A DNA stretch of 64,000 nt, taken from IMG/VR virus record IMGVR_UViG_3300013120_000738, positions 124,001-188,000 of that record, one strand, 5' to 3'. Of this stretch, positions 20,276 through 34,395 are shown in pieces (the first letter of the stretch is position 1; each line of letters starts with the position of its first letter). The notes under the pieces were generated by a model. That model was not told the origin of the DNA, did no database searches, and saw nothing but the letters and a program-made list of their open reading frames with translations. The stretch comes from a virus. The position numbers and the translations under genes were made by a program.

Positions 20276-21559
20276 TTATCCACGATTCATATAGGGTATA
20301 ACAGGGATATGCGGATACGGTCTAGGAGTTGGATCCTCAGCAGCAATCAAAGCCCTCATTAATTTAAACCGCATCTTATTAAGGATTTTCCACCGTCGTT
20401 TACCCTCTGGCACGACTCTTAGATTTTTCTCTTCCTCAGGGTCAGTTATTAAATCAAATAAATATTCCTGAGTACCATATATCCAATATTTATAACGTGT
20501 ATCCCGTATCATTCGCAATTTAGGCTGCCAACCCATCATCGATAACACATAGTCGTTTATCGGATCACCGGTCGAAAAAGCTTCAAACAATGATCTACCT
20601 TGAGCAGCTAGTGGTATCGGCTGATCAATCATAGTTAATATAGTCGGTAATATATCAATATGTTGTACTAAGTGCTTATATCGATCAGGCTTTAACATTG
20701 GAGCCTTAATAAGTAATGGAACTCTCGTATTGCCTTCGTAAGTGTACATTCCTTTTGAGAAATGCCCATGATCTCCTAGAATATCTCCATGATCAGAAGT
20801 AAAGATTATTATCGTATCATCATCTACAGCAGCTAGCAATCGACCAATATTACTATCAATCCATGATATTCCACGATAATAAAAAGCTTTTATTTTATGC
20901 CAATCATCTGCAGTAAGAGCACCACCATCAACATCTTCACTTTCACGAGGTATATCGAATTTGATTTTACCATATAATTTATTATATGGTGGCGGAGCTG
21001 TGTATGGTGGATGGGGTCCGACATAGCTGACTACAGTAAAGTGTGGAGATCGTGCAGTTTTCAGATGCTTAATCGCTAAATCGGTAATCACCTCTTCGTG
21101 ATGAAGGCGTCGATTATTAATAGATCCATACCACCCACGCATATTCATTAGTCTATCATATTGATGTACAATCTGATAATAATCTCTTCTCCAATCTGAA
21201 GTAAAGTATGATCGCGAGAAACCAAAATGCCCCGATAATTTATGTTCATCCTGTTTTTCTGATATATGGATTTTTCCAAAATATGCTGTATTATATCCAG
21301 CATTTTGAAGATAATTGGCTATTGTATATTCATTAGTTGGTAAATCTATAGCATTTAGCCACAATCTATGAGCAGTCGGATATCGGCCGGTTAACAGAGA
21401 AGCTCTACTAGGTTGGCATTGTGGGCTCTGACAGAAAGCATTCGTACAATCAATACTACGAGCCGCTAATCTATCTAAGTGTGGTGTTTTAATCCACTTG
21501 GTTCTATATCCAACAGCATCCCATCGTTGCTGATCTGTGAGAATCAATAGTATATTCAT
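20276..21559 (-). CDS. Sulfatase (formylglycine type)
   Basis: 427 aa, close to the usual length. NILLILTDQQRWD opens with the metal Asp; the activation signature CQPSRASLLTG has C48, the residue oxidised to formylglycine; later HPPYTAP and FTSDHGDILGDHG supply metal ligands. There is no signal peptide, so it would act in the cytoplasm unless on the virion. Activity needs a host formylglycine-generating enzyme. It may release sulfate from host polysaccharide, or edit sulfated intermediates of this locus. Confidence 0.9.
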   Translation of the reverse strand: MNILLILTDQQRWDAVGYRTKWIKTPHLDRLAARSIDCTNAFCQSPQCQPSRASLLTGRYPTAHRLWLNAIDLPTNEYTIANYLQNAGYNTAYFGKIHISEKQDEHKLSGHFGFSRSYFTSDWRRDYYQIVHQYDRLMNMRGWYGSINNRRLHHEEVITDLAIKHLKTARSPHFTVVSYVGPHPPYTAPPPYNKLYGKIKFDIPRESEDVDGGALTADDWHKIKAFYYRGISWIDSNIGRLLAAVDDDTIIIFTSDHGDILGDHGHFSKGMYTYEGNTRVPLLIKAPMLKPDRYKHLVQHIDILPTILTMIDQPIPLAAQGRSLFEAFSTGDPINDYVLSMMGWQPKLRMIRDTRYKYWIYGTQEYLFDLITDPEEEKNLRVVPEGKRRWKILNKMRFKLMRALIAAEDPTPRPYPHIPVIPYMNRG

Positions 21560-32900: not shown

Positions 32901-32903
32901 GAG

Positions 32904-32972
32904 TAGCGGATCCGGGGGTCGCACCCGGCGAACCAGGCTTATGAGGCCCGATTGAGCACTGGCCCATCCGCA
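32904..32972 (-). tRNA. tRNA-Met (CAT), reduced D-arm
   Basis: Anticodon arm CGGGC-CTCATAA-GCCTG and T-arm CCGGG-TGCGACC-CCCGG are clear. The acceptor has six pairs (GCGGAT/ATCCGC) and an unpaired T1/T72, as in initiator tRNAs. The D-arm is only GGGC-CAGT-GCTC with no bases 8-9, so the gene is about 69 nt. No CCA is encoded. Confidence 0.75.
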
Positions 32973-32991
32973 TCACACACTATTTTTGAAG

Positions 32992-33065
32992 TCAGGATGG
33001 TCGGATTCGAACCGACGCTCTCGTGGTCCCAAACCACGCGGAATACCAGGCTTTCCCACATCCTG
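32992..33065 (-). tRNA. tRNA-Pro (TGG)
   Basis: Complete cloverleaf: acceptor CAGGATG/CATCCTG, anticodon arm CGTGG-TTTGGGA-CCACG, T-arm GTCGG-TTCGAAT-CCGAC, discriminator A. CCA not encoded. Confidence 0.95.
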
Positions 33066-33100
33066 AAAAACGCCCCGACCGAATACCCAATCGGCCGGGG
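33066..33100 (-). terminator. Terminator just upstream of tRNA-Pro
   Basis: Stem CCCCGGCCGA/TCGGTCGGGG with 8 nt loop followed by CGTTTTTC, which runs straight into the tRNA-Pro 5' end. It may be a processing hairpin rather than a full stop. Confidence 0.55.
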
Positions 33101-33190
33101 CTAGGTATTTCATAATCTTTTTTCAAAAATTATGGAGTCGTTCTACACCCAACTAGTTCCGTTTAATTCCCCGATTCATTCGTTACGCCC

Positions 33191-33325
33191 GCAAGTCCTG
33201 CCATTAGACGATCCCCCCTGGTAAAAAGGGCCGCGTCCTAGAGTATAGCCAGAACCGCTGGTGAGTTCCAACATGTCACTAAGACGCGGTAAGAGGGGGG
33301 AATCGGACTTGAACCGATATTTGCT
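33191..33325 (-). tRNA. Permuted tRNA-like gene B (3' half before 5' half)
   Basis: On the minus strand a T-arm ATCGG-TTCAAGT-CCGAT plus TCCCCCC (33318-33295) comes first. About 75 nt later GGGGGGA TC GTCT-AATGGCA-GGAC (33218-33195) gives the 5' acceptor and a D-arm. The acceptor pairs 7/7. TTGC (5' half) can pair GCAA (3' half) to form part of an anticodon stem. The anticodon is not resolved. The spacer carries its own stem CCGCGTC/GACGCGG followed by CCCTTTTT. Confidence 0.55.
33231..33290 (-). other. Stem-loop with U-tract between tRNA halves
   Basis: CCGCGTC and GACGCGG close a 60 nt structure with an inner CCAG/CTGG hairpin, followed by CCCTTTTT. It looks like a terminator, which would separate the two halves of the permuted tRNA B unless it is read through or is a processing signal. 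Confidence 0.5.
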
Positions 33326-33407
33326 TGGCATTGATCAGGAAACCTCGATTTGGATGCTGACAACACTTATGAGCCTAGGGCGATAGTCTAAACTTCACAG
33401 TCGCACG

Positions 33408-33480
33408 CCATAGCCTCTGCCGTTGGGCTACCCCCACAAGTTTTGGTGTGGGGGGCAGGATTTGAACCTGCAACATATGG
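33408..33480 (-). tRNA. Permuted tRNA-like gene A (3' half before 5' half)
   Basis: Minus strand order: CCATA, var TGTT, T-arm GCAGG-TTCAAAT-CCTGC, CCCCCAC, discriminator A and an encoded CCA (33446-33444); then six spacer bases; then GTGGGGG TA GCC-CAACGGCAGA-GGC and TATGG. Acceptor GTGGGGG/CCCCCAC pairs 7/7 and anticodon stem TATGG/CCATA 5/5 only if the halves are joined in reverse order. The flanks AGTCTAA (33513-33507) and TTAGACT (33391-33385) are complementary and would extend that stem. A GCA (Cys) anticodon is possible but unproven. Confidence 0.6.
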
Positions 33481-33517
33481 AGTGCATTGTTTAATCTAAA
33501 TCTAAGCCTTAGACTGG

Positions 33518-33549
33518 AAGTGGTGGAGGCGCTTCACGCCACCCCACTT
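33518..33549 (-). terminator. Hairpin after the 33549-34304 gene
   Basis: AAGTGGGGTGGCG and CGCC-T-CCACCACTT with loop TGAAG immediately after the stop codon. No clear T-tract; it may also mark the 5' end of the permuted tRNA transcript. Confidence 0.5.
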
Positions 33550-34304
33550 TACCCTTTCTTTATGGGTGCAAGCAAGTACCCGAAAATCGACTTCGCGAAC
33601 TTCTGTTGCTCCACCTCAGTAGAGTTTGCCTTCTCTCTGGCACACTTCACAGCGTCCAGAAGAGCATCAACACGATCCACCAACTCTACCTTCTTGGCAC
33701 CAGGAATCGCACCACTGAAGTTAATGACCTCCCAGTACCCAACCAACTGATCCTCCGTGAAAACCTGAACCTGAGCAGGATGCTCCTTCGTGGCCGGAGA
33801 CAACTCCTCAACTTTACGTACCTTCTTCGACTTCGTCGTCTCATGCTGCTCGGTCGCGTAGGCACCCGCATTCTCATTCCAAGTCCACGTCTCAGCCGGA
33901 TCCAGAGTCGGCAGCTTCCCAATTTGCGTACGCAAATCGATCAACTGCTTCTCCAAGAACAGCAAGTGCGTGACCGGAACACCTGGCAAGATCACCGTAC
34001 CATTCACGGCCACATCCGCCTTCGCGTCACAATTCGCGACGTCCAGGGTTGCCACCATGTCGAACAAATCCGTCAACGCGGCCTCGGTCTGCTCCAACGC
34101 AGCCACCACCGTGAATTGGACCTGCTTACGCTCCGGAGGGAAAAGATCCGTGTCGTCATCATCCTTCGGACGATACGTACGGCTGATGCCCTGCAACAAA
34201 GCCTCTTTCTGTAACTTCTTGTACGCCTCGGTCTGTCGCTTCTTCGAGCGATCCTTCAAACCGTTCGTAACCGCAATCACCTGATTCAACTGCATCTTGG
34301 CCAT
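33549..34304 (-). CDS. Unknown 251 aa phage protein
   Basis: GC-rich, C/G at third positions, unlike its AT-rich neighbours. ATG at 34304 follows AAGGAGG; longer frame to 34343 lacks an SD. N-terminal basic helix (DRSKKRQTEAYKKLQ), a central TVVAALEQTEAALTDLFDMV helix and a C-terminal Lys-rich end. No catalytic motif recognised. Such abundant-codon genes are often highly expressed. Confidence 0.7.
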   Translation of the reverse strand: MAKMQLNQVIAVTNGLKDRSKKRQTEAYKKLQKEALLQGISRTYRPKDDDDTDLFPPERKQVQFTVVAALEQTEAALTDLFDMVATLDVANCDAKADVAVNGTVILPGVPVTHLLFLEKQLIDLRTQIGKLPTLDPAETWTWNENAGAYATEQHETTKSKKVRKVEELSPATKEHPAQVQVFTEDQLVGYWEVINFSGAIPGAKKVELVDRVDALLDAVKCAREKANSTEVEQQKFAKSIFGYLLAPIKKG

Positions 34305-34395
34305 CATGTCCTCCTTCAGAACGTCGTCCAAAATCTCAACCAAAATCTGAATTTGATAGTACTACAATACATCCCAAACCCGAAGATAATTCCTA

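Follow-up and report, generated by a model that had tools for sequence, protein, structure and literature searches.

A conserved RNA with two tRNA-like heads beside DUF7873 genes of phages and bacteria, a probable variant of the Y-RNA kind

The minus strand of a 64,000-nucleotide stretch of viral DNA (the window, positions 124,001 to 188,000 of the 227,725-base IMG/VR virus record IMGVR_UViG_3300013120_000738) carries a module made up of a gene of the uncharacterised DUF7873 family and, immediately downstream, two tRNA-like units, A and B, whose halves stand in permuted order. The module probably gives rise to a particle of DUF7873 and RNA whose mode of action resembles that of a double Y RNA, with two tRNA-mimic heads in one RNA, and the RNA itself is probably a new family, a variant of the Y-RNA kind acting within a ribonucleoprotein (RNP). 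The layout is found again in many phages and in Actinomycetota, Chloroflexota, Myxococcota and Planctomycetota, its helices covary, its flank motifs are conserved and it is coupled in genomes to DUF7873. The original prediction had read the units as permuted tRNA genes; the arrangement that it described is real and far beyond chance, but that reading of it is not supported.

In each unit a T-arm/3'-acceptor half is placed ahead of a 5'-acceptor/D-arm half, and the letters were verified. Unit A (coordinates of the module are on the minus strand throughout) has the anticodon-like strand CCATA (33480-33476), which pairs with TATGG (33412-33408), followed by the T-arm GCAGG-TTCAAAT-CCTGC (33471-33455), the acceptor-like 3' strand CCCCCAC (33454-33448), a loop or linker ACCAAAACTT (ACCA AAACTT, 33438-33447), the acceptor-like 5' strand GTGGGGG (33437-33431), then TA, and the D-arm GCCCAACGGCAGAGGC (33428-33413); the T-arm, both acceptor-like strands and the D-arm covary in relatives. 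Unit B consists of the T-arm ATCGG-TTCAAGT-CCGAT (33318-33302), the acceptor-like 3' strand TCCCCCC (33301-33295), a 76-nt linker (33219-33294) that has a hairpin of its own in the minimum free energy (MFE) fold and closes the acceptor-like stem, the acceptor-like 5' strand GGGGGGA (33218-33212) and the D-arm GTCTAATGGCAGGAC (33209-33195); linker lengths vary among its relatives. The acceptor-like strands pair at 7 of 7 positions in both units when taken in permuted order, although the claim that they pair only in this order was slightly too strong, as the 5' strand of A and the 3' strand of B reach 6/7 with wobble. No linear cloverleaf was found, as predicted: neither unit is called by ARAGORN or the Rfam tRNA model, the best linear tRNA covariance score, 17.9 bits, falls short of the gathering score of 29, and ARAGORN reports only a tRNA-Met (32903-32972) and a tRNA-Pro (32991-33065).

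The permuted heads are conserved as structures. In 69 of 80 bacterial loci a custom permuted-head finder detected one or more heads in the 1.2 kb that follow DUF7873, and in 1 of 80 it did so upstream; this finder selects for pairing, so the acceptor test was repeated from T-arm and D-arm signatures alone. Without selection for pairing, acceptors were perfect (7/7) in 83/87 relatives of unit A and 35/37 relatives of unit B, spanning 50 and 30 distinct acceptor pairs, respectively, while shuffled partners averaged 5.0 and 4.3 of 7. An alignment of 53 unit A sequences, from which the window was left out, gave 99.5% of cells paired in the head and two-sided changes in 12 of 15 pairs; double-change cells numbered 107 versus 24 in shuffled alignments, a value reached in none of 500 shuffles, and slid controls failed. 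The covariance model built from this alignment (R1) matches the window at 33360-33493 with 83 bits (E=3.6e-23), uniquely within the 64 kb, and elsewhere in the virus record it finds just a 17-nt T-arm piece (E=0.05). Heads mostly begin 50-180 nt past the DUF7873 stop codon, and the T-arms of tandem heads lie 137-187 nt apart.

DUF7873 occurs in 73 phage records, and profile searches turned up 396 relatives of the protein among viral contigs and, in species-level genomes, at least 544. The bacterial loci examined are the best 80 of these latter relatives and come mainly from Actinomycetota, with others from Chloroflexota, Myxococcota, Planctomycetota, Armatimonadota, Verrucomicrobiota and one cyanobacterial metagenome-assembled genome. 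R1 matches 76 of the 80, many of which also served to train it, in every case downstream of DUF7873 on the sense strand, with no further match in 655 kb. The same coupling is seen in larger genome sets, named by order after the loci that led to them. Of 200 Mycobacteriales genomes, 8 have DUF7873, in all 8 with R1 adjoining it, and every full-length R1 match above 45 bits is one of these adjoining copies; weaker matches elsewhere are probably junctions of neighbouring tRNAs. Among 121 Streptosporangiales genomes the RNA directly follows DUF7873 in 30 of the 31 with an intact gene and is found in none of the 86 that lack DUF7873, and in one further case (G296:C14:30053-30398) a DUF7873 remnant with a stop codon is still accompanied by an RNA scoring 88 bits. 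Most bacterial loci of the module have no tRNA nearby, and a search for a third conserved gene near the module found none. Three Herpetosiphon loci (L121, L136 and L142) have DUF7873 with no RNA match at E<=1e-4, the RNA there being diverged or lost.

When the window RNA is folded without constraints, two long irregular arms form, each with a tRNA-like cap, and a terminator-like hairpin follows. The 5' strand of arm 1 (33482-33521) holds a hexamer-periodic CTTAGA/TTTAGA motif, a CUSARR array in relatives, evident in both the alignment and the MFE fold, and its 3' strand (33371-33407), within the R1 match, carries the conserved AGACTATCGCCC (consensus CTCAGACTCTCGCTCC). The 5' strand of arm 2 (33335-33357) comprises the basal GCATCCAA, the loop motif ATCGA (33349-33345) and the stem P2c strand TTTCCTGA (33342-33335); its 3' strand (33145-33174) comprises the P2c strand TCGGGGAA, the conserved TTAAAC (33166-33161) and the basal TTGGGTGT. 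P2c pairs 8/8 in the window (33342-33335 with 33174-33167), and compensating changes distinguish it from its counterpart in the nearest relative (locus L016). Across relatives, P2c pairs with its own partner at a mean of 4.5 of 6 positions versus 2.9 for shuffled partners, and in 23 of 70 loci no arm 2 partner is more stable than the locus's own. RNAalifold on the full alignment recovered the heads only. An intrinsic terminator-like hairpin (33072-33101) closes the unit. The hexamer arrays were also considered as a coding peptide or tmRNA tag (K/R-L codons, KLRLSL-like), a candidate that was rejected since the frame is not kept between copies and codon usage is non-coding: AGA occupies 25 of 36 apparent Arg/Lys hexamer sites in high-GC loci, whereas in the gene next to them 4 of the 976 Arg codons are AGA.

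Positions 33521-33145 are predicted to encode a single non-coding RNA about 380 nt long. It probably shares a transcript with the DUF7873 gene, and transcription would stop at the terminator (33101-33072). The fold would consist of two long, irregular hairpin arms, and at the tip of each would sit a tRNA-like head made of a T-arm, a loop-closed acceptor-like stem and a D-arm. The chain would enter and leave each head via the anticodon position, and the permuted order would therefore be a matter of RNA geometry, with no gene to splice. No family in Rfam 15 reaches its gathering score on this RNA, and the only informative match is YrlA (RF02553; 30.8 bits, E=1.1e-4 here and 38.2 bits, E=7e-7 in Gordonia phage GodonK, with a gathering score of 69), a bacterial Y RNA whose tRNA mimicry is likewise permuted and which is the nearest relative of the RNA. 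A conserved RNA beside DUF7873 that belongs to no Rfam family therefore probably marks a partnership of RNA and protein that has gone unrecognised, rather than a new type of tRNA gene. By analogy with Y RNAs, DUF7873 may bind the arms to form a particle, in which the heads may engage tRNA-recognising proteins as tether, competitor or decoy, much as YrlA ties Ro60 to PNPase; they would either recruit an enzyme, as YrlA does with PNPase, or compete with tRNA for one. We lean slightly towards an RNP of bacteria and phages that has escaped recognition, is independent of Ro60 and acts on tRNA-handling enzymes, in phages perhaps shielding tRNA arrays from host tRNA-cutting nucleases by competition.

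The putative protein partner is encoded immediately 5' of the RNA (33549-34343, 264 aa) and is matched by the DUF7873 profile (Pfam PF25283) with E=1.3e-95 and 320 bits against a gathering score of 27. No match to DUF7873 was found in NCBIfam, PADLOC or PHROGs, and none of the papers searched mentions it. Several observations weigh against a DUF7873-RNA particle. The AlphaFold2 model of the protein is confident (predicted local distance difference test score 94), yet it has no significant match in PDB or BFVD and no known RNA-binding fold, and the protein is acidic here (isoelectric point 5.3; family median 6.2). Four of the 80 DUF7873 loci have no R1 match at E<=1e-4. Arm 1 is conserved in sequence, with CUSARR hexamers facing CTCAGACTCTCGCTC, but shows little covariation with or preference for its own partner. 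Furthermore, adjacency by itself could fit a regulatory 3' untranslated region (UTR).

If the RNA were a 3' UTR element acting in cis, controlling the expression of DUF7873 or the stability of its mRNA via tRNA-processing enzymes such as RNase P, which could cut the tRNA-like heads, this would explain why the RNA always lies 3' of DUF7873 in the same sense and is followed in the window by a terminator-like hairpin. This explanation is nevertheless unlikely, as two full-size, covarying tandem heads on long arms are larger than typical regulatory elements, and the Streptosporangiales RNA of 88 bits persists although its DUF7873 gene is broken. Comparably improbable is a true YrlA-type Y RNA pair whose Ro60/Rsr partner is supplied by the host. 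The shared permuted T/acceptor/D head and the sole informative Rfam match speak for it, but scores of 31-38 bits fall well below the gathering score and the GGTTAC (GGUUAC) stem motif, present in 6 of 6 YrlA matches read, occurs in 0/86 and 0/70 here. No Ro60 (TROVE, PF05731) was found in this virus record, in GodonK or in the Gordonia phage Phendrix, nor in 17 of 30 bacterial genomes carrying the module, and several genomes with the DUF7873 RNA hold a separate Ro60-adjacent YrlA match elsewhere.

Genuine permuted tRNA genes, in which the ends would be joined through the anticodon loop by splicing, a ligase or a permuted ribozyme and the linker removed to give a chargeable tRNA, would account for the permuted order, the perfect acceptors, the anticodon-like stem, the encoded ACCA of unit A and the position of loci within phage tRNA arrays. 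That ACCA, correctly reported for unit A, is kept in just 20 of 87 copies, and a loop of 6-7 nt mostly joins the acceptor-like strands, which leaves no free 3' end and makes the stem look closed, unlike a charged end. By inspection, no register gives a 7-nt anticodon loop with U33 across the aligned relatives, the anticodon-like stem extends into a long arm formed by the 5' and 3' flanks, and the fold contains no bulge-helix-bulge (BHB), no BHB with 3-nt bulges being conserved here. Circularisation, trans-splicing or a permuted self-splicing intron, proposed to restore the linear order, are likewise unsupported given the lack of an intron family, the conserved flank arms and the near-obligate tie to DUF7873; the complementary flanks taken as a hint of an intron are part of the arm that closes unit A, an arrangement like that of a Y RNA. 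Taken together, these observations leave permuted tRNA genes very improbable. A permuted group I or II intron was rejected separately, a permissive cmscan of both units having returned no such family and little space being available for an intron around unit A. So was a linear intron-containing tRNA formed from the 5' half of A and the 3' half of B: despite the 6/7 pairing in the window, the 5' half of the first unit and the 3' half of the second are non-complementary in relatives such as GodonK. Finally, decayed tandem tRNAs could look permuted at the junction of neighbours, as arrays do set a 3' half beside a 5' half and the weak R1 matches elsewhere are probably of this nature, but acceptor strands that covary with each other refute this reading, and the module is kept, specifically coupled to DUF7873, in bacterial loci that mostly have no tRNA nearby. 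We give it practically no credence.

The phage relatives of the proposed RNP repeat the layout. A sensitive DNA search with the unit A junction found it, unannotated, in Gordonia phages GodonK and Phendrix. GodonK, whose gp152 is also a DUF7873 protein (E=2e-101), has two tandem units with differing acceptors (CCCCTGC/GCGGGGG and TCCGGCC/GGCCGGA), the second of which has a 5/5 anticodon-like stem. The gap after phage DUF7873 genes is mostly 400-700 nt and unannotated, with the same layout within, in phages of Gordonia, Rhodococcus, Arthrobacter, Pseudanabaena and Klebsiella. The phage module often sits within tRNA arrays, a position that might, speculatively, suit a role in protecting phage tRNAs or controlling their quality.

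Some phages and the surroundings of the module show further features. Ronaldovirus phages Ziko (L004) and Keelan (L006) have an extra linear degenerate tRNA-like hairpin (GCAACGG...CGTTGC-ACGA) 5' of both heads, and a Microcoleus phage (L010) has a linear tRNA-like element after DUF7873 (about 2285-2360) and no permuted head at E<=1. In the window, two overlapping neighbour genes of the sulfotransferase family (PF03567; 31497-32117 and 32104-32775, minus strand) lie beside the phage tRNAs, and a sulfatase-family gene (PF00884, E=5e-53) is found at 20276-21559 on the minus strand.

To our knowledge, permuted-order tRNA mimicry in bacteria is known mainly from the Y RNAs of the YrlA type that are tied to Ro60. 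A second and larger class of tRNA mimic beside another protein gene would extend the Y-RNA principle past Ro60, provides a concrete hypothesis for the DUF7873 family and may constitute a phage tool for the control of tRNA metabolism or for defence. It also disposes of the idea of permuted tRNA genes in a phage, which is attractive but mistaken.

Permuted tRNA genes have been reported from algae and one archaeon and use BHB motifs (PMC3978253); a literature search for permuted tRNA in phages found nothing. The present units resemble the circularly permuted tRNA genes of red and green algae and Thermofilum in the order 3' half, linker, 5' half and in acceptors that pair in reverse order, but they have no BHB junction, anticodon loop or conserved CCA, extended arms replace the precursor ends and the protein neighbour is fixed. 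Permuted tmRNA (RF04321) also sets an acceptor/T-arm before the 5' acceptor strand and gives weak matches (E=0.3 and 0.07), whereas the RNA described here has a proper D-arm, no tag reading frame and two heads.

The closest comparison is with YrlA. Ro60-adjacent YrlA matches in the host genomes also stay under the Rfam threshold, at about 38-60 bits. Divergent ones from actinobacterial, planctomycete and Chloroflexota genomes (L178-L181 and L185) score 39-60 bits, and RF02553 probably under-calls YrlA in these groups. In published accounts, YrlA is described as an RNA with a long stem that bears a tRNA-like T/acceptor/D domain; it tethers Rsr (Ro60) to PNPase and is modified by TruB and DusA (PMC8394870), and Salmonella YrlA is placed in an rsr-yrlBA-rtcBA RNA repair operon, with a suggested role as competitor of an anticodon nuclease (PMC7790460). 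The RNA beside DUF7873 shares with YrlA the permuted head of T-arm, closed acceptor-like stem and D-arm, the long stem formed from 5' and 3' ends, the adjoining protein gene and the frequent occurrence in pairs, as in yrlBA. It differs in that its partner gene is DUF7873 and not TROVE/Ro60, it scores below the Rfam gathering threshold, its arms carry CUSARR arrays and an AUCGA/UUAAAC loop, and both heads are held at fixed spacing within one RNA.
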